From a virus: a stretch of 20,710 nt of DNA. The notes beneath the pieces are model-generated. The model saw nothing but the letters and a program-made list of their open reading frames with translations. It had not been told where the DNA came from and made no database searches. Location: positions 1 through 20,710 of the IMG/VR virus record IMGVR_UViG_3300044956_000617, one strand, 5' to 3'. The translations under genes and the position numbers were made by a program. Positions 115-9,867 of this stretch are shown piece after piece; within the stretch, counting starts at the first letter, position 1, and each line of letters begins with the position of its first letter.

Positions 115-699
115 ATGGATCGTGGGAAGTCGGAGGCGAGCGAGGCCGTAGAAGGCCGGGGAGAGGCCGCGGGCGAATGGCGTCCCACGGCGTCGTTGCG
201 GCCTCTCCCCGGAAACCCGCGGTCGCACTCGCCCGCGCAGGTCCGGCGGATCGCCGCGCTCGTCGAGCGGTTCGGTTGGGGCCGGACGATCGTGATCCGG
301 CCGGACGGCACGATCCTCGCCGGTCACGGCGCATGGTTGGCCGCGAAGCACCTCGGGATGGCACGAGTGCCCGTCCGGGTGCTCGACCTCGACCCCAAGG
401 CGAGCCGCGAGTTCGCGCTCGCGGACAACGCGCGCGACTTCGGCGACGACGACGAGCGCGAGGTGCAGGCGATCCTCGCCGGGGCCGACGACGACTTCGC
501 GGAGATCCTCTCGGGCGAGCCCGAAGAGGGGCTCGAGGTCGACGACGTCGACGTTGGGGAGGTCGAGAAGCGCGCGGGCGAGGGCCGCTTCGAGCTCACC
601 GTGCGCGGGCCTCTGCTCGCAGAGCCGGAGGCGCTCGACCGGCTTCGCGCCGCGCTCGAGGACATCGAGGGCGTGACCGTTGAAGCGAGCTGGACGTGA
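115..699 (+). CDS. ParB/Srx-fold nuclease-like protein
   Basis: A 194-residue protein with one ParB/sulfiredoxin-like domain at about residues 25-125. The pattern is the ParB N-domain one: a PxxNPR-like LPGNPR at 31-36, a helix leading to ERFGW at 51-55, the signature GTILAGHGAW at 65-74, AAKHLGMARVPVRVL, then a DNAR segment near 104-107. In phages this family often sits next to DNA methyltransferases or terminases, and some members nick DNA. Activity here is inference. The C-terminal part (about 158-194) has the form often seen in phage ParB-like proteins. I chose the ATG at 115 because GGAGG lies 8 nt upstream (102-106). An in-frame ATG at 40 has no ribosome site and would add a low-complexity tail. 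The stop overlaps the next start as GTGA. Confidence 0.85.
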   Translation: MDRGKSEASEAVEGRGEAAGEWRPTASLRPLPGNPRSHSPAQVRRIAALVERFGWGRTIVIRPDGTILAGHGAWLAAKHLGMARVPVRVLDLDPKASREFALADNARDFGDDDEREVQAILAGADDDFAEILSGEPEEGLEVDDVDVGEVEKRAGEGRFELTVRGPLLAEPEALDRLRAALEDIEGVTVEASWT

Positions 700-1310
700 C
701 CGCGCCGGTCCACAATTCGAGCGCCTCGATCGCCGCGAAGATCGAGCTGCGAGAGCGCGCCCTCGCGCACGTCGGGGAGGCCCACGTCGTCGACCTCTTC
801 TGCGGCCCCGTCGGGGAAATGCACCGTCACGTTTGGTCGCGCGCGGCCTCGTACCTCGGCGTCGACGTGGTCTACCGTTGGCCGGATCGGCGCGCGCGCA
901 TCGTGGCTCCGTGGCGCGACGCGCTCGAGCACGTTCCGATGGCGCGGTTCAACGTGTTCGACCTCGACGCGTTCGGTGCTCCGTGGCCTGCGCTGCTCGA
1001 GCTGACGCAATGGCGGCGCGCGAAGCCCGGAGAGAAGCTCGCGATCGTCACGACGGACGGCAACTGGCGATCGACGATGCGCGGGTTTGCACAGGCCGTC
1101 GAGTCTCGCGCGGCGTTCCGAAAGCTCGGCGTCGAGCCACCGTCGGAAATGGGAGGCGAGCAACGCAGCGCGTGCGAGTCGGCGCTGCTCGGCGCGGCCC
1201 ACGCGATGGGAGCTCGCGTAGCGTCGATGGCGGTCGCCGGGTACGGGCGTCACCGAAGCAAGCGAGTCGGGTACGCCGTCGCGCTGCTCGTCGGCGTCAC
1301 CACGGCATGA
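696..1310 (+). CDS. SAM-dependent methyltransferase-like protein
   Basis: A 204-residue protein starting at GTG in a GTGA overlap with the ParB-like gene, so the two are probably translationally coupled. VVDLFCGPVGEM (31-42) looks like a Rossmann methyltransferase motif I. It is followed by GVDVV (55-59), suiting the acidic strand-2 motif, and by FNVFDLDAFGAPW (85-97), in the place of motif IV. No DPPY or PC catalytic motif is present, so the substrate (DNA, RNA, protein or small molecule) is unknown. The rest is helical and basic near the C-terminus (RHRSKR, 186-191). The SAM-binding fold is inferred from motif order only. It may be a degenerate phage methylase working with the ParB-like partner. 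Confidence 0.7.
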   Translation: MTAPVHNSSASIAAKIELRERALAHVGEAHVVDLFCGPVGEMHRHVWSRAASYLGVDVVYRWPDRRARIVAPWRDALEHVPMARFNVFDLDAFGAPWPALLELTQWRRAKPGEKLAIVTTDGNWRSTMRGFAQAVESRAAFRKLGVEPPSEMGGEQRSACESALLGAAHAMGARVASMAVAGYGRHRSKRVGYAVALLVGVTTA

Positions 1311-1384
1311 GCATCTGCGTCGGAGCCGACTGCGAGAGCACGCCGAGGGTCTTTTCGCGCCATCGGAGAGCCCAGCGTAGCAGG
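1311..1384. other. Convergent gap between two operons
   Basis: This 74-bp gap separates the end of the plus-strand methyltransferase-like gene from the end of the minus-strand accessory operon. A GTCGG/CCGAC dyad with a 2-nt centre lies around 1320-1331, but it is too tight for a normal terminator loop. I see no convincing terminator and no gene. Confidence 0.4.
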
Positions 1385-1600
1385 TCAGCGCAGCCTGCCC
1401 ACCGCGCGCACCCAAGATCGCCACGTCTCGGCGGTCACGCGCATGACGCGCACACCGTCGCCGGCCACGCGCACGCAGGGACGGATCGTGACCTCGTAGC
1501 CCGTCGTGCCGTCGTCGCACTCGACGCCGCCGCGCACCTCGATCTCCATATCCGCCTCGCCGTCCCTCAGCACTGCCCGCTGCTCGTGGTACCCGGTCAT
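1385..1600 (-). CDS. Hypothetical 71-residue protein, last gene of the accessory operon
   Basis: A small protein with no family I recognise. The N-terminus is acidic and strand-like, with MEIEVRGG at about 18-25 and YEVTIRPCVRV at about 35-45. The C-terminus holds Trp and Arg (TWRSWVRAVGRLR). The pattern suggests a small beta-sheet domain. The start is supported by a strong GAGGAG ribosome site about 8-9 nt upstream on the minus strand, and the gene follows the 38-residue ORF after 12 bp. That context makes it more likely real than a chance ORF. Function unknown. Confidence 0.65.
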   Translation of the reverse strand: MTGYHEQRAVLRDGEADMEIEVRGGVECDDGTTGYEVTIRPCVRVAGDGVRVMRVTAETWRSWVRAVGRLR

Positions 1601-1612
1601 GTCCAGCCCTCC

Positions 1613-1729
1613 TCAGCGCTCCTCTTGCCAGTCGTCGGCGTCGATGGCTTCGGCCGCGAGAAGCATCGCCTCTTTGCGATCGGTGCGCGGAGGCGATGCG
1701 CCGTCGAGCCGGTAGATCGGCTCGCTCAC
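1613..1729 (-). CDS. Very small ORF (38 residues) coupled to the DUF5131 gene
   Basis: GTG start in a GTGA overlap with the stop of the DUF5131 gene. It encodes 38 residues that begin MSEPIYRLDGASPP, continue with an amphipathic helix (DRKEAMLLAAEAIDADDW) and end QEER. The overlap type matches the other junctions in this operon, and the next gene's ribosome site begins just after its stop, so it fills the gap exactly. No function can be assigned. A longer reading in this frame (up to 1975) is mostly an Arg-rich shadow of the DUF5131 gene. Confidence 0.55.
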   Translation of the reverse strand: MSEPIYRLDGASPPRTDRKEAMLLAAEAIDADDWQEER

Positions 1730-2586
1730 GACACGACCTCGAGCGCGAGCTTCGCGGCCTCCATGTGCTTCGTCTGCCGCTCCGCGTGAACGTAGCCCTC
1801 GGGCATCGCGCCCTCGACGTGCGGCATCTGATCCCACGTCGCGCCGTCGATCGTGCGCCCGCCGCTCGTCGGCCGCGGGCCTCCCCACTGTTTGAACCAG
1901 AACGCGACGTTCTGCGCGATGCACGCGTCGCGGAGCTGGCGCACGATCGAGAGCCCGCGCTCGGTCGGAGCCCACCGGCCGTTGACGCGCGCGACGAGCC
2001 CGCGCTCGCGGCAGACCTCGGGACGCATCAGGTGTAGACCGCTCTCACCGCCTCCGATCAGCCAGTCGATCCCGCGCAGGTCGACGTTCGGTCCGAGCCC
2101 TCCGATCAGAGGCTCGGCGCTCACGAACCGCACGCGAGCGTTGATCGCGCGGAGGTGCTCGAGGCGATCGAGCACGCGCGCATCCTCGACCGTGGTGCCC
2201 ATCCACACGTTGGCGGGGCACGGGTGACGATCGAACCACGCGCGCGCGAGGTGCGGGCGCTTCGTGAGGATCTGGTAGCGATGCTGCGGGGTGCGAGCGA
2301 TGGTGTCGAAGACGGCCTCGCGGAACACCACGGGTACCTCTTCGAAGAAGACGTCGGTCATCGACGACGTGAAGATCAACGAGGGGCGCTTCTCCCGCAG
2401 AGGCTCAGTCAGCTTGTGCGGACGCAACGTCAGGTCGAAGCCGTTCGGAAACGCGGCAGTTCCACGCTTGTTCTCGGCGAGGGTGTCGGCGTAGCAGTAC
2501 TTGCAGCCCGCGGAGACCTTCGCGCATCCGCTCCATGGCGACCACGTCAACGAGGTCCAGTTGATAGCAGTTTCGTTCATGCTCAT
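1726..2586 (-). CDS. DUF5131 (phage Gp37/Gp68) family protein
   Basis: A 286-residue protein with the hallmark N-terminus of the phage Gp37/Gp68 family. INWTSLTWSPWSGC is followed by three cysteines at C21, C28 and C31 (C-x6-C-x2-C, then Tyr), a radical-SAM-like iron-sulfur cluster pattern. Other family-typical segments are FTSSMTDVFFE (72-82), YQILTKRP (104-111), VWMGTTVE (127-134), FVSAEPL (154-160), WLIGGGESG (175-183) and FWFKQWGG (229-236). Relation to radical SAM enzymes is known for the family; no phage substrate is established. The ATG at 2586 is chosen because GAGGAG lies about 7 nt upstream. It overlaps the HNH gene stop as ATGA, so the two are coupled. A second in-frame ATG lies 2 codons in. 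Confidence 0.9.
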   Translation of the reverse strand: MSMNETAINWTSLTWSPWSGCAKVSAGCKYCYADTLAENKRGTAAFPNGFDLTLRPHKLTEPLREKRPSLIFTSSMTDVFFEEVPVVFREAVFDTIARTPQHRYQILTKRPHLARAWFDRHPCPANVWMGTTVEDARVLDRLEHLRAINARVRFVSAEPLIGGLGPNVDLRGIDWLIGGGESGLHLMRPEVCRERGLVARVNGRWAPTERGLSIVRQLRDACIAQNVAFWFKQWGGPRPTSGGRTIDGATWDQMPHVEGAMPEGYVHAERQTKHMEAAKLALEVVS

Positions 2587-3080
2587 CGGGTCTCTCCTCG
2601 CGATCTCGTTCGTTGGTGATGACAGCGCGAGCAGACGATCTGTACGTGCTCATGGTGCTCGGCGGCGTAGCCGAGGTGGTGGTCGTACTCGTGTCGTCGG
2701 CCTTTGCCGATGTGCCCGCAGTCCACGCAGGCGACCTTGTTGGGATTAGGCAATCGCCCGTCCTTCTGTAGATGGTTGACACGAGCGCGCGCCTGCTTCT
2801 TGTCGCCGGATCTCACGCTCACGAAGCGACGCCCCTTGGTCTGGCCGCGAGGCCCGCGGCTCACGTAGGTGGCTGCGTAGTGTGCCCTGCGGCTCTCGAT
2901 GCAGGCTGCCGCGAGACCGTCAGGTCTTGAGCCGTCTGCGCCGAATGCCGCGGTCGGGTGCCACGCCTTGCAGCGTGTGCAGCGCTTCTCGCCGCTCGCG
3001 CAGCGAAGTCGGTACTCCTCTTCCGTGCATCCGGCGACCGTCGCAGCTCGCCGGATGCCGCCCTCGATTGTTCCTGCCAT
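2583..3080 (-). CDS. HNH endonuclease with N-terminal zinc ribbon
   Basis: A 165-residue protein with two metal-binding parts. The first is CTRCKAWHP (34-42) with a later Cys (C60), the ribbon that often precedes phage HNH domains. The second is the HNH core: C118-x2-C121, HEYDHH (130-135) carrying the catalytic His pair, a His at 146, and C150-x2-C153-H. Phage HNH proteins may nick DNA during packaging or be homing nucleases; the role here is open. I chose the ATG at 3080. It has no Shine-Dalgarno sequence, but TACCAT lies exactly 6 nt upstream, suggesting a leaderless transcript. An in-frame TTG at 3104 is the alternative start. Confidence 0.85.
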   Translation of the reverse strand: MAGTIEGGIRRAATVAGCTEEEYRLRCASGEKRCTRCKAWHPTAAFGADGSRPDGLAAACIESRRAHYAATYVSRGPRGQTKGRRFVSVRSGDKKQARARVNHLQKDGRLPNPNKVACVDCGHIGKGRRHEYDHHLGYAAEHHEHVQIVCSRCHHQRTRSRGETR

Positions 3081-3086
3081 GGCGGC

Positions 3087-3115
3087 ATGGTATCGCGTGG
3101 CCAACGATTCGTCCA
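3087..3115 (-). promoter_or_regulatory. Candidate promoter for a leaderless HNH-DUF5131 mRNA
   Basis: On the minus strand TGGACG (3110-3115) is followed by a 17-nt spacer and TACCAT (3087-3092), then 6 nt, then the ATG at 3080. Both hexamers match 4 of 6 consensus positions for a housekeeping promoter. The spacing would place the transcription start at or next to the A of the ATG. It lies in the 90-bp gap (3081-3170), the only sizeable gap inside the minus operon. Confidence 0.45.
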
Positions 3116-3170
3116 GTCGATGCGCCCGCCCGGTGTCGCTCCGGGTGTCGTTCTCCGCGGGCGCGGTGCG

Positions 3171-3620
3171 TTAGGTGCGGAGATCCACGGCGCGCGCGAT
3201 CGCCGGATCGCGCGGCTGCGCCACCAGCTCCCCGTCGACGTTTAGCAGGCCGCCGCGCATCGCGTGCTCTGGTCGCACGCGCCCGGTGAGGACCGCGAGC
3301 GCGTGCTTGGTGAGCGTCGCGCGCTTGTATCGCTCGCTCTCCTCGCGCTGGATGTCGCGCGCGTAGCCGAGCGTCACGGAACGCGAGCCCGCGTTCAGCG
3401 GCGAACCCTCGCTCACGGCTCGCGCGAGCCCGCCGATGTAGTAGCGAGCGTTGTACGCGAGACGCCGGCACTCGGCCTCGACCGCGTCTCGGACGCCGAC
3501 GTAGTAGGCCTCTCGCTCCGCAGGGGGCATTGCCTCGGCGCGATCGATCAGCGCGACACGCGCCGCGTCGTCGGCCCCGAGTTCCTTGATTAGTGCGTCT
3601 TGCTCTTTCGTCGTGCTCAT
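3171..3620 (-). CDS. Hypothetical 149-residue helical protein
   Basis: Not recognised. The first two thirds look alpha-helical and charged, with KEQDALIKELGADDAARVAL near the N-terminus and AEREAYYVGVRDAVEAECRR at about 35-55. A basic stretch (ERYKRATLTKHAL) follows. The tail, NVDGELVAQPRDPAIARAVD, may be a small beta hairpin. GAGGAG lies 8 nt before the ATG at 3620, and only 2 nt before an upstream in-frame ATG at 3626, so 3620 is the better start. It follows the RHH gene after 12 bp and belongs to the same operon. It could be a structural or regulatory accessory protein. Confidence 0.8.
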   Translation of the reverse strand: MSTTKEQDALIKELGADDAARVALIDRAEAMPPAEREAYYVGVRDAVEAECRRLAYNARYYIGGLARAVSEGSPLNAGSRSVTLGYARDIQREESERYKRATLTKHALAVLTGRVRPEHAMRGGLLNVDGELVAQPRDPAIARAVDLRT

Positions 3621-3632
3621 GGTCATAACTCC

Positions 3633-3887
3633 TCAGTCAATGGGCTTGTCGAGGTCGCCGCCGACCTCGCGTGCGATGCGAGCTCGCTCGCGCGAGTCGC
3701 GGAACCGCGTGTCTTGCGCGGGCCGGTCGAGGTCCGAGCGTCCCGCGGCGCTCAGCAAGATCCGGCGCAGCGCCGCGGAGAGGCTTTCGCTCGGGCTCGT
3801 GCGCGTGCGGTGTGCGTGCGCTTCGATCGCCTCGCGCTGCTCAGCGGAGAGCAGACGCACGAGGATCGCGTGCCTCGAGGCGCTCAC
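3633..3887 (-). CDS. Ribbon-helix-helix-like small DNA-binding protein
   Basis: An 84-residue protein starting at GTG in a GTGA overlap with the upstream gene. Residues 5-45 fit an RHH (CopG/Arc) layout: a strand RHAILVRLLS, helix A SAEQREAIEAHAHRT, a turn with SPSES, and helix B LSAALRRILLSA. The tail (about 50-84) is highly charged (RFRDSRERARIAREVGGD) and probably disordered or helical. RHH proteins bind DNA as dimers and often autoregulate their operon. The dyad in the divergent region (5296-5310) is a natural candidate target, but this is inference. The longer reading of the frame up to 4115 is an Arg-rich shadow. Confidence 0.7.
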   Translation of the reverse strand: MSASRHAILVRLLSAEQREAIEAHAHRTRTSPSESLSAALRRILLSAAGRSDLDRPAQDTRFRDSRERARIAREVGGDLDKPID

Positions 3888-4249
3888 GACGCGACCTCGT
3901 CGGGTCCGGCGATCGTGAAGCCCGCGGCCTCGAGCGCGTCGGCGATCTCGTCCAGCGTGTCGGCGTCCCACGTCTTGCCGTTCATCGCGTCGAAGATCCG
4001 ACGCAGCGTGACCTCGTCGCTCGCGGGCGTCCCGAGCGCGGCGCGCGCGGTCACCATGCGATCGCGCACGTCCGCCTCGAGCTGCGAGAGCGTGCGAGAC
4101 GTTCGGTAGCGCCACACGAACGAGGGATCGTCGCCGTGAGGGTCGTTGTTGACGTGGTACGTCGGCGCGTCGGCGTCGGCGTCGTCGTCGAGGTGAAGCG
4201 TGATCCCGGCGATCGCGATCGTCTCGGGGTTCTGGTTCATCTGGTCCAT
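3884..4249 (-). CDS. Hypothetical acidic protein (121 residues)
   Basis: Not recognised. It begins MDQMNQNPETIAIAGITLHL, then a short acidic run with DDDADADAP (21-29), a segment with FVWRYRTSRTLSQLEADV (44-61), and a C-terminal helical part (RRIFDAMNGKTW, DTLDEIADALEAAGF). The overall charge is strongly negative, which in phages is seen in DNA mimics and in ordinary small structural proteins alike; nothing here decides. GGAGG lies 6 nt before the ATG at 4249, fixing the start well inside a longer open frame. It overlaps the end of the Cys-rich gene upstream by 13 bp and the RHH gene downstream by 4 bp. Confidence 0.8.
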   Translation of the reverse strand: MDQMNQNPETIAIAGITLHLDDDADADAPTYHVNNDPHGDDPSFVWRYRTSRTLSQLEADVRDRMVTARAALGTPASDEVTLRRIFDAMNGKTWDADTLDEIADALEAAGFTIAGPDEVAS

Positions 4250-4500
4250 GTTCGTCCTCCCTTGTTCCACGGGCCTCGGGCGCGAGGTCCGTCGCAATTG
4301 CACAGGCGCGGGGTCGCGTACTCGACCGGCACGCGCTTCGTTTTCTCTTGCCGGAACGAGCGATGGATCGCCTGACACGTCGGCTCGTGCGTCTCGACCA
4401 TGCAGCACACGCAGTCGTGATGCTCGGCCGCGCCGCAGCGGCGACACGGAAGCGCCCATTCGTCGGGGTCCGCGAGATCGAGCCGGAGCTGCGTCGTCAC
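4237..4500 (-). CDS. Small Cys-rich, probably zinc-binding protein
   Basis: An 87-residue protein starting at GTG in a GTGA overlap with the preceding gene. It has eight cysteines: C19-x2-C22, then C30-x-C32-C33, C42, and C67-x-C69, with His at 27, 28, 38 and 46. The spacing (CRRCGAAEHHDCVCC) suggests one or two zinc sites. The C-terminus is basic (GPRARGPWNKGGRTWTR) and could contact nucleic acid. No family is recognised. An in-frame ATG at 4527 would add nine residues, but the coupled GTG fits the operon's pattern better. Confidence 0.7.
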   Translation of the reverse strand: MTTQLRLDLADPDEWALPCRRCGAAEHHDCVCCMVETHEPTCQAIHRSFRQEKTKRVPVEYATPRLCNCDGPRARGPWNKGGRTWTR

Positions 4501-4955
4501 CACGTCACCATGCTCGCGAGGGTCCACATGATCGGCGTCCTCGGCGTCCAGGCGAGGTCACCGCGCTCGCACGCGAGCCAGAGGCCGCGATCGATCGGCG
4601 CATCGAAGAGCACGTCGGCCGTCGTGCCGACGAGCTGCAGGCAGATCGCGTTGAACGTGCGCGGCCTGCCATCCTCGAGCAGCGCGACGATCGCGCTGGC
4701 CCACCGCTCGGGAGAGCCCGACTTCTTCGCGACATCGTTCTCGCCACCGAGCGACCTTGAGGTCTTGCCGCGCGCCATCGTCTCGACATCGGGCTCGATC
4801 GCGAGCGGCGCGCGGATCAGATGCAGGTATGCGCGGAGCCCGGAGCGGTCGGGCAGGCCGCGGAGGTACGCGTAGGCGTCCTCGTACAGCCAGCCCGTGC
4901 CGCTCGCGAGAGCGGGTAGCTCGAGCTGGACGGGCTCCGCGCGACGACGGGTCAC
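4497..4955 (-). CDS. Hypothetical protein, possible winged-helix domain
   Basis: 152 residues from the GTG at 4955. The C-terminal half (81-145) reads like a helix-turn-helix or winged-helix unit: SPERWASAIVALLEDGRPRT, FNAICLQLVGTTADVLFDAP, then a wing-like GDLAWTPRTPIMWTL. The N-terminal half holds aromatic residues (GWLYEDAYAYLRGLP, 21-35) and a basic linker (ARGKTSRS). A regulatory or replication role is possible but unproven. The start is uncertain. A TTG at 5078, in a TTGA overlap with the previous gene, would add 41 Arg/Gly-rich residues that look like an off-frame reading (see the 4952-5078 entry). Confidence 0.65.
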   Translation of the reverse strand: MTRRRAEPVQLELPALASGTGWLYEDAYAYLRGLPDRSGLRAYLHLIRAPLAIEPDVETMARGKTSRSLGGENDVAKKSGSPERWASAIVALLEDGRPRTFNAICLQLVGTTADVLFDAPIDRGLWLACERGDLAWTPRTPIMWTLASMVTW

Positions 4956-5078
4956 GCCGCACCCGCTGCGCGAACGTGGCCGGTCTCGCAGCCCGTCGCC
5001 GCAGCGGCGCGCGCGCGGCGCGTCTCGACCGCCTTGCGCGCGGCTTCCTTGCTGCGAGCGCGCGCTCGCCACGATCAA
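4952..5078 (-). pseudogene. Possible frameshifted small ORF
   Basis: On the minus strand the frame after the TGA at 5075-5077 reads SKEAARKAVETRRARAAAA and ends at a TGA (4952-4954) that overlaps the GTG at 4955 in the standard GTGA way. This frame has no start codon. A TTG start at 5078 (TTGA overlap) lies in the neighbouring frame. A single-base change around 5045-5060 would join a normally coupled start to a normally coupled stop and give a protein of about 40 residues. Seen: both junctions and the open frame. Inferred: a recent indel, a sequencing error or a +1 recoding event. Confidence 0.35.
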
Positions 5079-5269
5079 CCCCCGAAACCGACAGCAAAGC
5101 GAACGGCGGCGATGCGGGCCTCTCCGTCGACGGGAAGAGCGGCCCCGCGGGCGAGAACCGCGATCAGGTTTCCGGCAAACACGGTGGCGTTCTTCATGTC
5201 GCCAGACCTGATCGCCTCTTCTGCCGCTGCGAGATTTAACCGGGCCAGGCTGTCGTATCGGCTCGTCAT
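5075..5269 (-). CDS. Hypothetical 64-residue protein, first gene of the accessory operon
   Basis: Starts at ATG 5269 and begins MTSRYDSLARLNLAAAEEAI. It is a mostly helical small protein with a hydrophobic stretch NATVFAGNLIAVLARGAAL (27-45), which could be a buried helix or a weak membrane segment. No family is recognised. It is the first gene transcribed leftward from the divergent region. Shine-Dalgarno support is weak (only AAGG about 7 nt upstream), and a TA-box sits 6 nt before the ATG, so it may be read from a leaderless mRNA. Confidence 0.65.
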   Translation of the reverse strand: MTSRYDSLARLNLAAAEEAIRSGDMKNATVFAGNLIAVLARGAALPVDGEARIAAVRFAVGFGG

Positions 5270-5275
5270 GGGAGA

Positions 5276-5281
5276 GCCTTA
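5276..5281 (-). promoter_or_regulatory. Candidate -10 box of the leftward operon
   Basis: TAAGGC on the minus strand ends 6 nt before the ATG at 5269, the same geometry as at other transcription-unit starts in this window. An overlapping reading, AATAAG preceded by TGC (5278-5286), resembles an extended -10. Either would give an almost leaderless mRNA. Weak match to consensus. Confidence 0.3.
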
Positions 5282-5295
5282 TTGCAGACGTCGTG

Positions 5296-5310
5296 CCACG
5301 GTATCCGTGG
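5296..5310. promoter_or_regulatory. Perfect 15-bp dyad, candidate operator
   Basis: CCACGG-TAT-CCGTGG is a perfect inverted repeat with a 3-bp centre. If transcription of the leftward operon starts near 5269, the dyad covers about -27 to -41, i.e. the -35 region. That position suits a repressor site. Two RHH-like proteins are encoded in the flanking operons (3633-3887 and 5450-5665). Which protein binds, if any, is not shown by sequence. Confidence 0.45.
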
Positions 5311-5415
5311 GCAAAACATTCGGGAAATCGGGAAACGGGCCGGAGAACGGGGGCCGACTGTCGCCGGTTGCTGTGTCGCTTGGTCGCGATCGAGACGCTC
5401 TGTCGCGGTTTACTG

Positions 5416-5442
5416 TTGCCCCGATATTCTCGGTGCTACAGT
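5416..5442 (+). promoter_or_regulatory. Candidate promoter of the rightward packaging operon
   Basis: TTGCCC (5416-5421) and TACAGT (5437-5442) are separated by 15 nt, and the -10-like box is preceded by TGC as in extended -10 promoters. The box ends 7 nt before the GTG at 5450, so the transcript would begin at about the start codon. The 15-nt spacer is short, so the extended -10 is the stronger part of the claim. Confidence 0.45.
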
Positions 5443-5449
5443 GCTCGGG

Positions 5450-5665
5450 GTGAGCAAAGAAAAGAGAGAGAAGAGAAGCCCCGGTCGACCTCCTATGAGG
5501 CCCGGAGAGGCCCGGAGCGCGCGCCTGGTAGTGAAGGTGCGGCCCGTGCTCGCGCGGGCTGTGGGGCGCGCGGCGAAGCGGGAAGGGCTGTCCGTCCCCG
5601 CATGGGTCCGCGACGCGCTCGTCGCTGCGGTCGCTCGATCGCTCGCTCGCGCGGAGGGCGCGTGA
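5450..5665 (+). CDS. Small RHH-like DNA-binding protein
   Basis: 71 residues from the GTG at 5450. A basic, Pro-rich N-terminus (KEKREKRSPGRPP, containing an AT-hook-like GRPP) precedes an RHH-like core: strand SARLVVKV (23-30), helix PVLARAVGRAAKREG, turn LSVP, helix AWVRDALVAAVARSL. It is the first gene of the rightward unit and is coupled by GTGA to the probable small terminase. It may be an autoregulator of the divergent region or a packaging accessory factor. The start is uncertain: GTG at 5441 and ATG at 5282 are in frame, none has a Shine-Dalgarno sequence, and residues encoded before 5441 look non-coding. Confidence 0.65.
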   Translation: MSKEKREKRSPGRPPMRPGEARSARLVVKVRPVLARAVGRAAKREGLSVPAWVRDALVAAVARSLARAEGA

Positions 5666-6135
5666 TCGTGGCACGCATGCCGAACGAGGCGCTCGTCGCC
5701 CGGATCTTTGAAGAGTCGATCAAGGGCCGCAGCGCCGCAAAGATCGCGGAGCTGCTCGAGCTGGATCAGACCACCGTGCGCGTCGCGATGCGCGATCCCG
5801 CGTTCCGCGCGAGCGTGACGCAGTACCGCGCCGAGGTCGTCGACGCCGCGGTGTCGAAGCTCCACGCGCAGGCCGAGCTTGCGGTCGTTCAGCTCGGCGC
5901 GGTGATGACCGGGAAGGTGAAAGGCACGGGTGCCGCTGCGGTCGTGCGAGCTGCAGAAGCCGTGCTCGACCGGATCGGCGTGCGGCGCGTGAGCCCGCTC
6001 GACGAGCAGCGCGCGCCCGAGGCCGAGCGCATCGTCAACGTGCTCGTTCAAGTGATCTCGCAACACCCCGAGGTCAAAGAGCAGGCGATGCGCGCGATCG
6101 AAGCCGAGGTCGTCGGAGAGGGCGAGCCGCATTGA
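5662..6135 (+). CDS. Probable terminase small subunit
   Basis: 157 residues from GTG in a GTGA overlap. The N-terminal part contains a helix-turn-helix: VARIFEESIKGRSAAKIAEL, LELDQTTVRVAMRDPAF (about 10-50), typical of small terminases that recognise the packaging site. A long helical middle follows (RAEVVDAAVSKLHAQAELAV; AAAVVRAAEAVLDRIGV), suited to oligomerisation. The tail, EVKEQAMRAIEAEVVGEG, may contact the large subunit. The assignment rests on the HTH plus helical layout, the length and a position two genes before the large terminase; no diagnostic motif exists for this diverse family. Another HTH regulator is the alternative. Confidence 0.65.
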   Translation: MIVARMPNEALVARIFEESIKGRSAAKIAELLELDQTTVRVAMRDPAFRASVTQYRAEVVDAAVSKLHAQAELAVVQLGAVMTGKVKGTGAAAVVRAAEAVLDRIGVRRVSPLDEQRAPEAERIVNVLVQVISQHPEVKEQAMRAIEAEVVGEGEPH

Positions 6136-6749
6136 CCGCGACAATCGCCGCACTCTTCGTCGAGGCCGGAGGCGCATACGCGCACCTCAAGGGCGTCGAG
6201 ACTTGGCCGGAGGATCGGGACGCACGCACCTACGACGGCCCGCACGTCGTGATCGCGCATCCTCCGTGCTCGACGTGGTCGCAGCTCGCGAAGGTCAACG
6301 AGAAGCGATACGGGCACGCCGTGGGCGACGACGCCGGGTGCTTCGCGAGCGCGCTCGCATCGGTTCAACGATGGGGCGGCGTGCTCGAGCATCCTGCCTA
6401 CTCGCACGCATGGCCGCGCTTCGCGCTGCCGCGTCCCGTGCGCGGCGCGTGGTCTCGGTGTCTCTTCGCAAGCATCCCCGAAGGGCGTCGAGCGTGGGTC
6501 ACGGAGGTCTCGCAGTCTGCCTACGGGCACCAAGCTCGAAAACGAACGTGGCTCTACGTCGTCGCGCGGCACGCGCCGGAGGCGCTCGACTGGCGCGACC
6601 TCGAGGGCACCGCATGGTGCGGTTGGAACAACCCCGACCGCGAGCGCATGCGCGAGCGCGGCAAGCGCACCCTGTCGAAAGCGGAATCGAAGGCGACCCC
6701 GCCTGCGTTCAGCGAGCTGCTTCTCTCGATCGCAAGGTCGTGCGCGTGA
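6132..6749 (+). CDS. HPPC-motif DNA-methylase-like protein
   Basis: 205 residues, starting at TTG in a TTGA overlap. Conserved-looking blocks include RDARTYDGPHVVIAHPPCST (30-49) with a PPC motif like the catalytic loop of C5-cytosine methyltransferases, GGVLEHPAYSHAW (81-93), GHQARKRTWLYVV (132-144) and TPPAFSELLLSIA near the end (189-201). Phage genes with the same HPPC, EHPxxS and RKxTWLY blocks are usually annotated as methylase-like or hypothetical. The canonical FxGxG SAM motif is not evident, so true methyltransferase activity is doubtful. Its place between the two terminase genes suggests a link to DNA modification or packaging (inference). Confidence 0.75.
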   Translation: MTATIAALFVEAGGAYAHLKGVETWPEDRDARTYDGPHVVIAHPPCSTWSQLAKVNEKRYGHAVGDDAGCFASALASVQRWGGVLEHPAYSHAWPRFALPRPVRGAWSRCLFASIPEGRRAWVTEVSQSAYGHQARKRTWLYVVARHAPEALDWRDLEGTAWCGWNNPDRERMRERGKRTLSKAESKATPPAFSELLLSIARSCA

Positions 6750-8314: not shown

Positions 8315-8525
8315 CCGATGCGGCTACCGAGACCAGGCGTCGCGGCGCGCGCGTCGCTCGTGTATCGGTTGCGGCGAGGAGCTGCCGGACGATCGCGGCC
8401 TATGGTGTCGGGCCTGCGTGTCCGAGGAGTACCTGCGGTGCGTGGTCGAGCGGCAGCGCATCAAGATAGTCAGTGCGTCAGCCGTCGAGGCGCCTGCGCC
8501 GTCGCCGGGTTCTCGGTCTCGATGA
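8307..8525 (+). CDS. Small zinc-ribbon protein
   Basis: 72 residues from ATG 8307, overlapping the terL stop by 8 bp. C19-x2-C22 and C34-x2-C37 (CIGCGEEL ... WCRAC) form a classical four-Cys zinc ribbon, with extra Cys at 5 and 45. The N-terminus is Arg-rich; the tail is Pro/Ser/Arg and looks disordered. Function unknown; such ribbons in phages often accompany nucleases or polymerase-binding factors. The last 56 bp overlap the 3' end of the oppositely oriented portal gene, so the two transcripts converge. Confidence 0.65.
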   Translation: MTDRCGYRDQASRRARRSCIGCGEELPDDRGLWCRACVSEEYLRCVVERQRIKIVSASAVEAPAPSPGSRSR

Positions 8526-9867
8526 TGCGCGGCACCATCTTCTTCGCGGTCACCGGGATCCCGAACGTCGCGACCATCTGATCGACGTCGAGCTCTCGAC
8601 CGCTCGCGGCCAGCGCATCGCGAAGCAGGTTCATCGCGTTCGCTGCGGTCACGAGACTCGCGGCGATCGAGTTGAGATCGCTCGGCGGGCTCACGTCCCA
8701 CGACACCGTCGCGAGGTCGCTCGCGAGCAGCGCATCCTCGCCGTACTCGAGCGCGACCCACGCCGGGATGATCTGCGTGTTGATCGTGAACGCGAGCGCG
8801 CTCTCGTCGCGCTGGATCAGATCCGCGCGCACGCTCTTGTGCACGTCTTGGTTCGAAAAGCCAGAGCCGCCGTCGACGGTCACGACCTGCCCGTTGATCG
8901 CGAGCACGATCTCTTTGTTCTGCTCGTCGATCGTGAGGCGGAACGAGTCCGCACCCTTCCCGTTGCTCTCGACGAGCTTGATATCCCACCCGACCGGCAG
9001 GCCGAACACCGTGTTCATGCCCCACGCGAGCAACTTCTGGAACGCGTTGCGTCGCGTCGGCTCGTCGGCTCCGAGCGGCGCGACCGCGACGCGCGCGGGG
9101 TTCGCGAGCTTCATCTCCCAGTTCTCGCGACGAAGGCGCGCGTGCTCCTTCGTGACGTAGCTCCGCGCGAGCGCGCGCCACAGGCCGTTCTGCCACGGGT
9201 ACACGCGGCCACCGGGGACGTGCAGCACCCATCGACCGTCGCCGGGAGTGATCGGCAGAAGGCCCGCGATCGACGAGTAGAACCAGCGGTTCTCGAACCA
9301 CCGATAGCGCAGATGCTCGGGCGGCAAGCGGTTCAACACCGGATGCGTGCGGCCGGGCACGGGCACCAGCTCACCGACGGCGACGCCGAGCTCGACGCCG
9401 TCGCGATCCATCATCTCGAGCTCGGCGGGCGGGCACATCTCGTCAAAGATCGAATGCGCCTCGAGGCCGCCCTCCTGCAGACGGTCGATCATGTCCGCGC
9501 GACCGCGGAACCGTCGCGGCAAGCGGATCAGACCACCGCAGCGCGTCGACATGATGCCCGCGATCACACCGTCCTTGTGCGCGCTCCGCATGAGCGCCCC
9601 GGCGAGCGAGAGGTCGCCTTGATCGGCAAGCACCTCGGCGCGTTCCACGTCTTGCTGCGTCCATCGCGTGATCGAGGTGACCGGCAGCGCGAGCTGCCCC
9701 CCGAACCCCTCGCGGATCTGCTCGACGCTCGGATCGCCGAGGCTCGGCAGCATCGACTCGGGCAGCGCGTAGGCCGCGATGCCTTGCAGCGCGCGACGGA
9801 TGCGCTCGCTGATCGTCGCAGGCCGTTCCTCGCTCTTCACCACGCGGGTCGTGATCTCGTATGCCAT
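8470..9867 (-). CDS. Portal protein (DUF935, Mu gp29-like), on the opposite strand
   Basis: 465 residues. Layout and motifs fit the Mu gp29/DUF935 portal family: an N-terminal basic region, ALMRSAHKDGVIAGIMSTR (91-109), a core with VLNRLPPEHLRYRW (177-190), HVPGGRVYPWQNGLWRALAR (216-235), a stem-like part through FGLPVGWDIKLVE (288-300), and VHKSVRADLIQRDESALAFT (342-361) with IIPAWVALEYGED (366-378). The portal forms the dodecameric packaging gate at one capsid vertex. The ATG at 9867 has AGGAG 4-5 nt upstream. The gene points against terL and the protease, which is odd for a late head operon. The long plus-strand ORFs across it are Arg/His-rich shadows. Confidence 0.9.
   Translation of the reverse strand: MAYEITTRVVKSEERPATISERIRRALQGIAAYALPESMLPSLGDPSVEQIREGFGGQLALPVTSITRWTQQDVERAEVLADQGDLSLAGALMRSAHKDGVIAGIMSTRCGGLIRLPRRFRGRADMIDRLQEGGLEAHSIFDEMCPPAELEMMDRDGVELGVAVGELVPVPGRTHPVLNRLPPEHLRYRWFENRWFYSSIAGLLPITPGDGRWVLHVPGGRVYPWQNGLWRALARSYVTKEHARLRRENWEMKLANPARVAVAPLGADEPTRRNAFQKLLAWGMNTVFGLPVGWDIKLVESNGKGADSFRLTIDEQNKEIVLAINGQVVTVDGGSGFSNQDVHKSVRADLIQRDESALAFTINTQIIPAWVALEYGEDALLASDLATVSWDVSPPSDLNSIAASLVTAANAMNLLRDALAASGRELDVDQMVATFGIPVTAKKMVPRIIETENPATAQAPRRLTH

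Follow-up and report, generated by a model that had tools for sequence, protein, structure and literature searches.

A packed cluster of ten minus-strand open reading frames (ORFs) on a 20.7-kb IMG/VR fragment of a Mu-head phage with late genes encodes a DUF5131 protein (g8) with a predicted radical-SAM fold and intact motif cysteines, and TcmP, the partner of DUF5131 in cells, was found neither in the window (the whole 20,710-nucleotide stretch analysed) nor in most phage records examined. We lean, by a modest degree, towards reading the cluster as an early or accessory operon of a tailed phage with g8 as a radical-SAM enzyme that is self-sufficient and has nucleic acid as its substrate. The operon would be read from the gap upstream of g1, divergent from the late genes, and g8 would be made early and without TcmP. 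It would bind a [4Fe-4S] cluster and S-adenosylmethionine, generate a 5'-deoxyadenosyl radical and direct this at a base in phage or host nucleic acid, for modification or repair, presumably to the benefit of the phage.

Layout and conservation of the gene cluster

The ORFs form the packed unit of small genes, facing away from the late genes, that the sequence-only reading had described (Table 1). Direct inspection of the sequence shows a 4-base overlap (GTGA or ATGA) at four junctions and a 13-base one between g3 and g4, and Shine-Dalgarno-like sequences lie upstream of g4, g6, g8 and g10. When scored against codon use pooled from ten genes of the same phage, seven of the ten ORFs (the g2 core, g4, g5, g6, g8, g9 and g10) followed the phage codon bias, scoring between 0.33 and 0.73 bits per codon; for late genes, most of them inside the training set, the range was 0.52 to 0.72. 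The score of g1 was near zero and that of g3 negative, and both are unproven as genes. The g7 score was also negative (-0.24), and we take g7 to be real despite this because family matches support it (phrog_2340, 2.6e-6; phrog_1035, 2.1e-4), which also bear out its earlier assignment as an HNH / endonuclease VII protein; Pfam gave no match. Since the 40 residues preceding GTG 4955 have a non-coding look (score -0.07; codon-position-2 GC of 0.76), g2 probably starts at 4955, not at 5078.

Table 1. Features of the cluster and its surroundings in the window
Feature	Position	Strand	Remarks
Orphan, 204 aa	696..1310	+	methyltransferase-like DLFCGP motif; convergent neighbour of the cluster
g10, orphan, 71 aa	1385..1600	-	codon score 0.35
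g9, 38 aa	1613..1729	-	start overlaps g8 stop; codon score 0.42 for 1613-1735
g8/g9 4-base overlap	1726-1729		
g8, DUF5131, spore-photoproduct-lyase-like radical-SAM protein, 286 aa	1726..2586	-	PF07505, fold, motif
g7/g8 4-base overlap	2583-2586		ATGA
g7, HNH / endonuclease-VII-like, 173 aa	2583..3104	-	from TTG 3104 (or 165 aa, ATG 3080)
g6, orphan, 151 aa	3171..3626	-	codon score 0.47; family matches sub-threshold
g5, suspected ribbon-helix-helix, 84 aa	3633..3887	-	codon score 0.33; pattern by eye
g4/g5 4-base overlap	3884-3887		
g4, acidic, 121 aa	3884..4249	-	pI 4.2, charge -15; codon score 0.73
g3, Cys-rich ORF, ~87 aa	4237..4500	-	overlaps g2; codon score -0.15; weak phrog_25165, E 0.054
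g2/g3 4-base overlap	4497-4500		
g2, orphan, 152 aa	4497..4955	-	from GTG 4955; codon score 0.44; no family or relatives
g1, orphan ORF, 64 aa	5075..5269	-	codon score 0.05; no family match
Imperfect palindrome, 31 bases	5412..5442		13-base arms, 2 mismatches; divergent gap upstream of g1

The palindrome in the divergent gap is a possible operator. Its score was reached by 9 of 500 dinucleotide shuffles of 5270-5480, seven higher-scoring palindromes lie elsewhere in the window, and occurrence of its half-sites elsewhere is not above chance. The leaderless promoter formerly proposed for the DUF5131 and HNH genes was not confirmed by a scan of 1000-6200 for sigma-70-type sites, which returned none (0.1 expected by chance). 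Neither an Rfam match nor a tRNA was found in the window. Beyond the cluster, the convergent orphan at 696-1310 carries a DLFCGP motif and later a D-FG-PW motif, reminiscent of TcmP; no relatives of it were found.

As anticipated, searches of the Pfam, PHROGs, NCBIfam and PADLOC libraries left most cluster products without a family, and no product matched a virion family. Even at E 1, these libraries gave nothing for the ribbon-helix-helix suspected in g5, a short sequence, or for the winged helix suspected by eye in g2. A C-terminal stretch of g4 matches phrog_15104, of unknown function (6.1e-7; 1.7e-9 in another search), which was found in none of 22 other phage records. No solved structure related by sequence to g7 was found. 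In tblastn searches of INPHARED, g7 had three partial phage matches and g4, g6 and g2 had none. Single-query pattern scans of IMG/VR, which require an exact shared 8-residue stretch and can thus miss distant relatives, gave one weak relative for g7 and none for g6 or g2. The comparisons for g1, g3, g5, g9 and g10 covered the family libraries and loci L003-L025.

The outcome named beforehand as counting against the sequence-only reading, genes occurring singly without a conserved partnership, was largely borne out. None of g1-g10 matched any of 17 terminase-related loci by tblastn, and DUF5131 was present in 0/17 of these records, many of which are short fragments. A conserved operon was likewise rejected: g8 was the sole cluster gene to match any of loci L003-L025 (tblastn), and the phage collections searched yielded no relative of g2, g4 or g6. 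The cluster appears to be a patchwork of small genes particular to its lineage, not a conserved system; the rest of it, DUF5131 aside, is an unremarkable accessory cassette of orphans without conservation.

Family, predicted fold and motif of the DUF5131 protein

The DUF5131 assignment of g8, made earlier from the sequence alone, is certain (PF07505, 1.6e-71; 241 bits against a curated cut-off of 28.9). The protein also matches phrog_2045 ('Gp37/Gp68 family', 3.1e-71) and the PADLOC-DB 2.0 models PDC-M41B and PDC-M30B (1.4e-76 and 1.3e-74), the B halves of candidate defence pairs in which TcmP is A and DUF5131 is B. Unlike those pairs, the window has no A component (TcmP, TIGR04474), and g8 has a 21-residue insert common to one other contig and missing in 107/109 compared sequences. 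A match to TIGR04471 (radical SAM mobile pair protein A) is local (3.7e-19, residues 25-184) and, at 69 bits, far below the cut-off of 355; a second radical-SAM gene beside g8 was not noticed. The literature searched gave no published function for DUF5131 or TcmP.

The AlphaFold2 model of g8 (pLDDT 85.9), from an alignment of 48 of 80 cellular loci, six IMG/VR loci and the window, is predicted to adopt a partial TIM-barrel fold matching mostly radical-SAM enzymes. All six Foldseek matches at E <= 0.001 were spore photoproduct lyase, the best fold match overall (Foldseek 1.7e-4; VIA-align Z 12.8, 3.7 Å over 214 residues), but identity to g8 is 10-12%, the Foldseek TM-score only 0.37-0.52, and the cysteine spacing differs. 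Scans of Pfam and NCBIfam with g8 returned no spore photoproduct lyase family, and no solved structure related by sequence to DUF5131 was found. Because the VIA-align fold matches also include lipoyl synthase, viperin and RlmN, the substrate could be something other than nucleic acid. Cysteines 21/28/31 are present in 109/109 DUF5131 sequences, the g8 copy included. Their spacing is CX6CX2C in 108/109 and CX3CX2C, the canonical radical-SAM cluster spacing, in one viral copy. Outside the cysteines, a few viral copies deviate at otherwise invariant residues.

DUF5131 and TcmP in cells and phages

The cellular partner of DUF5131 is TcmP, modelled as a predicted RlmJ-like methyltransferase, and the pair occurs across many bacterial phyla. 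The cellular loci were the best-scoring 80 of more than 566, and the TcmP profile was built from their neighbours, four of which were checked against NCBIfam and were all TcmP; the neighbour analysis took in all 108 fetched DUF5131 loci. Fourteen cellular loci had no TcmP within 600 bases; among these, L028, L090 and L094 end ~250 bases or less from the gene, and L074 has TcmP 794 bases off. Among 121 genomes of one order, full-length DUF5131 was found in 14, and the same 14 carried TcmP, 12/14 within ~450 bases and 14/14 on one contig. The order was that of the genome holding L042, picked from four candidate genomes and known beforehand to hold the pair, so the coincidence is 13/13 without it. 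In three further genomes the DUF5131 matches were fragmentary or broken and TcmP was absent; another four had TcmP-like matches below the cut-off and lacked DUF5131.

Phages presented a different picture. DUF5131 was without TcmP in 19 of 22 complete phage records, hand-picked for diversity from DUF5131 matches (151 and 157 records, many near-copies); the other three carried the pair, two of them beside an immunity repressor. Like these solo copies (phrog_2045), the window copy lies alone in a phage accessory region, and no TcmP was found in the 20.7-kb fragment or in the 46.5 kb of L003, carrier of the closest DUF5131 copy. At the 22 named-phage loci, the genes annotated within 2.5-3 kb either side of DUF5131 included none for head, tail or terminase. 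Annotated neighbours included RecT, SSB, methylases, replication initiators, integrases and repressors, early-type surroundings that agree, as does the direction of the unit, with the early-gene role first suggested. The immediate neighbour was ASCH in 4/22, a superfamily of nucleic-acid-binding domains (PMC7641849).

In the tree, 22 of 26 unpaired viral DUF5131 copies formed one supported group (99/99), the pattern that a long history of working without a partner would produce. This group is not nested among its hosts' copies, so recent capture is not indicated. On a branch separate from it (100/99) sit the window and L003, possibly reflecting a separate second viral origin; a single origin of 23/26 unpaired copies was not rejected (p-AU 0.069) in a test that omitted the long-branched L004, L115 and L128.

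Competing explanations and significance

We give very little credence to a two-gene unit of HNH and DUF5131 acting together from its own promoter. The ATGA overlap links g7 and g8, mycobacteriophage TChen has an HNH gene directly after DUF5131, Bipper, RHph_N28_2, Sbash and Matteo have one in the flank, and an HNH family adjoins DUF5131 in three cellular loci (L049, L056 and L071). Against this, HNH was immediately adjacent in just 1/22 named-phage loci and somewhere in the flank in 5/22, the HNH types are unlike (endonuclease-VII-like in the window, weak IscB/HlpB matches in TChen), the sigma-70-like scan left the pair without a promoter-like site, and g7 codon use is atypical, as for a gene acquired separately. 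A complete pair in the phage, with TcmP beyond the fragment or too divergent and the operon half of a portable defence module, is decidedly unlikely. The window record is a fragment, the three paired phage records set a precedent, and the motifs of the 696-1310 neighbour recall TcmP; but cellular pairs lie close together, L003 shows no TcmP, and 696-1310 fails as a hidden TcmP (no NCBIfam match; hmmsearch 0.7 bits; hhalign 13.8%).

Counter-defence, in which the solo radical-SAM half subverts a host DUF5131-TcmP pair by replacing the partner, undoing the mark or pre-marking phage nucleic acid, is unlikely in our judgement. In its favour, PADLOC lists the pair among its candidate defence systems (PDC-M30/M41), the g8 motif cysteines are intact, and the coincidence of the two genes in cells stands against the missing TcmP of most phage records; the un-nested main viral group, lacking any sign of recent capture, speaks against it. 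Unlikely, too, is a broader proposal that phages split the widespread cellular radical-SAM/RlmJ-like methyltransferase pair and kept the radical-SAM half alone (the 22/26 group and possibly a second line of window and L003), the solo enzyme being an antidote to or hijacker of the cellular pair that premarks, unmarks or mis-marks a nucleic-acid target early in infection. The self-sufficient enzyme that we favour draws on the packed one-strand layout, codon use, the DUF5131 family, fold and cysteines, the solo phage copies, early-type neighbours where annotated, ASCH adjacency and the RlmJ-like model of the cellular partner. Counting against it are the fragmentary record, the non-canonical CX6CX2C spacing, the lack of a sequence-level match to a solved structure, the other radical-SAM folds that match g8 and the few viral copies deviating at invariant non-cysteine residues. 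Of the sequence-only interpretation, the packed unit of mostly unmatched products stands and the HNH-DUF5131 partnership is not supported; a role in host takeover or anti-defence is possible, and the cellular partner TcmP had gone unnoticed.

DUF5131-TcmP is a suspected antiviral pair, and the window, like many other phages, has only its radical-SAM half. Should the pair prove to defend, its solo half in phages would point to an arms race, and the chemistry could be tested from the phage side as well as the host side. Otherwise, the copies in phages still suggest a radical-SAM reaction used by phages, probably on nucleic acid.

The minus-strand operon and its surroundings

The window, an IMG/VR virus record, has a GC content of 66-72% (1-kb windows over 20,710 bases), and its plus strand carries terminase, head protease and Mu gpT-like capsid protein genes, together with sheath, tail tube and tape measure genes named solely by reading of their proteins. 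The minus-strand operon that the sequence-only reading had placed at 1385-5269 is present as ten co-directional ORFs (g1-g10) with 4-base overlaps at four junctions. Small corrections apply to the boundaries of g2, which probably starts at 4955, g3 and g9. With the pooled codon usage of ten genes of this phage as reference, seven of the ten ORFs scored positive, g1 about zero, and g3 and g7 negative. Family matches support g7; g1 and g3 are unproven as genes.

The earlier HNH and DUF5131 calls were borne out by profile matches of g7 (HNH/endonuclease VII: phrog_2340, 2.6e-6; phrog_1035, 2.1e-4) and g8 (DUF5131: PF07505, 1.6e-71; phrog_2045, 3.1e-71), the only two operon products identified. 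The acidic g4 has a C-terminal stretch in common with phrog_15104, a family without assigned function, and the ribbon-helix-helix of g5 and winged helix of g2 are impressions only, with no match in the family libraries scanned. The operon is real and accessory in type, and its timing would be early. A search confined to sigma-70-like promoters, a type of site rare by chance at this GC, found none in 1000-6200. The gap upstream of g1 had the lowest GC (58.8%) of five stretches compared and contains a 31-base palindrome equalled by 9 of 500 shuffles; seven others in the window outscore it. Divergent promoters could reasonably lie in this gap.

The portal gene of L009, a terminase-related contig, is 92% identical to that of the window and likewise on the minus strand; in L010-L016 the portal occupies the same slot on the plus strand. 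The minus-strand portal of the window and L009 suggests an old inversion of this one gene within the late region.

Coordinates of features in the window and in comparison loci
Feature	Record	Coordinates	Strand	Remark
Orphan 204-aa gene	window	696-1310	+	convergent with operon
g9	window	1613-1729	-	corrected coordinates
g8	window	1726-2586	-	286 aa
g7	window	2583-3104	-	
g3	window	4237-4500	-	corrected coordinates
Gap	window	5270-5480		
Palindrome	window	5412-5442		
ORF	window	5282-5665	+	listed start likely too early, L009 match only from residue 64 on; codon use of whole ORF non-phage; C-terminal half weakly matches HicB-like antitoxin family (0.0017)
ORF	window	6132-6749	+	directly before terminase; phrog_12600, 1.4e-53 (function not assigned to family); methyltransferase-like HPPC motif by eye
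Portal gene	window	8470-9867	-	Mu-type; between plus-strand terminase and protease
Portal gene	L009	2295-3683	-	
DUF5131-TcmP frame	L026	1047-3062		
DUF5131-TcmP frame	L033	4977-6671		
Solo DUF5131 locus	L126 (Mycobacterium phage prophiGD11-3)	2495-4608		PAPS-reductase-like gene directly after DUF5131

Fold of DUF5131 and its cellular partner

The AlphaFold2 model of g8, built from 55 aligned sequences, was of good quality (pLDDT 85.9, pTM 0.84). All six Foldseek matches at E <= 0.001 were spore photoproduct lyase, which also led in VIA-align (Z 12.8, 3.7 Å over 214 residues; g8 1-233 against lyase 70-341), with viperin-like enzymes (11.3) next and SkfB, RlmN, LIAS and further radical-SAM enzymes after them. 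NCBIfam gave TIGR04471 as a distant radical-SAM relation (3.7e-19, under cut-off). Cysteines 21, 28 and 31 were present in 109 of 109 DUF5131 sequences, spaced CX6CX2C in 108 and CX3CX2C in one viral sequence; the ranges aligned by VIA-align are compatible with a position of cysteine 21 near the cluster cysteines of the lyase. Among the 109, the GGESG motif is followed by a 21-residue insertion only in the window and in L003, the contig with the closest DUF5131. Mechanistically, the operon can be read only through g8, a predicted radical-SAM enzyme with its cysteines intact and no partner in view.

In cells, a gene for the methyltransferase-like TcmP lay within 600 bases of DUF5131, in either order or convergent, in 66 of the 80 best-scoring loci (of >566), and two of these 66 have both in one open frame (L026 and L033); these are natural fusions of the pair. 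To lessen best-hit bias, 121 genomes of one order were searched, and full-length DUF5131 was found in 14, one of them pre-chosen since the order was selected via it. TcmP exceeded its cut-off in the same 14, on one contig with DUF5131 in every case, the matched ranges lying within ~450 bases in 12 and ~1.0 and 2.8 kb apart in the other two. The TcmP model (37 sequences, pLDDT 88.5) is a class I methyltransferase. VIA-align ranked the 23S rRNA m6A enzyme RlmJ best (Z 16.6, 3.3 Å over 211 residues) with the tRNA methyltransferase Trm1 (14.3) behind, whereas Foldseek put a DUF519 protein at the top and Trm1, closely trailed by RlmJ, after it. By these folds, the two cellular partners resemble a radical-SAM enzyme and a methyltransferase of RNA type, and nucleic acid would be the substrate of both members.

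PADLOC lists TcmP as the A and DUF5131 as the B component of PDC-M30 and PDC-M41. One paper describes PDC systems as candidates from 'guilt by embedding'; among 100 P. aeruginosa strains it predicts PDC-M30 in 32, of which 68.8% were called resistant (PMC10855318). An S. meliloti table of regulated genes has TcmP next to the Hna defence gene (PMC12445080). Searches of the open PMC library, which covers few subscription journals or preprints, turned up no publication that addresses what DUF5131 or the pair does.

DUF5131 in phages and the likely role of g8

By tblastn, DUF5131 occurred in 151 phage records, from which 22 were chosen for diversity. A convergent TcmP gene adjoined it in three (BaxterFox, Fairfaxidum and Synechococcus phage Ssp-JY39), and whole-record searches found no TcmP in the other 19, in the window, or in six IMG/VR records, which are fragments. 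The two Gordonia pairs adjoin an immunity repressor and group in the tree with actinobacterial chromosomal pairs. In the same tree of 109 sequences, 22 of 26 unpaired viral copies formed one supported group (99/99), and the window and L003 paired elsewhere among cellular copies (100/99); a single origin for 23 of the 26 was not rejected by a topology test (p-AU 0.069). To judge from these sequences, the pair is usually broken in phages, DUF5131 being the half kept. Solo copies, where annotated, are surrounded by early-type genes. The DUF5131 of prophiGD11-3 is annotated as an RNA methyltransferase, and that of Mesorhizobium phage vB_MseS-P1 as spore photoproduct lyase.

A two-gene unit of HNH and DUF5131, which the sequence-only reading had proposed, now seems very improbable: HNH was the immediate neighbour in 1 of the 22 loci, whereas ASCH was in 4. 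The ASCH-domain gene lies immediately downstream of solo DUF5131 in L111, L117, L119 and L122.

Nor was the make-up of the operon kept in the relatives seen. A terminase query retrieved 17 related contigs, eight of which (L009-L016) have the portal, protease and capsid genes in common with the window; g1-g10 gave no match to any of these contigs, and DUF5131 was in none of the 17 records, many of them short. On present data the cassette is therefore particular to the window's lineage. In L010 and L016, with a 10-kb flank upstream of terminase, a rough gene call placed mainly plus-strand genes near terminase, and reading identified ParB-like proteins upstream of it. The DUF5131 gene of L003, whose sequence gave no match to the window terminase, sits in a similar slot, divergent from putative terminase genes (by reading) and convergent with a ParB-methyltransferase gene (ParB part by reading). 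The equivalent place in the window holds a ParB-like gene (phrog_620, 2.3e-24), then the orphan gene convergent with the operon.

That orphan, with a methyltransferase-like DLFCGP motif and no relatives found, gained no support as TcmP from NCBIfam, hmmsearch or hhalign, which speaks against a full pair in this phage; the record is a fragment and TcmP might lie out of view, though we consider this quite improbable. That g8 serves as counter-defence against the cellular DUF5131-TcmP pair is a somewhat less remote but still unlikely reading. We lean, by a little, towards a self-sufficient role for g8, in which it would work on nucleic acid without TcmP.
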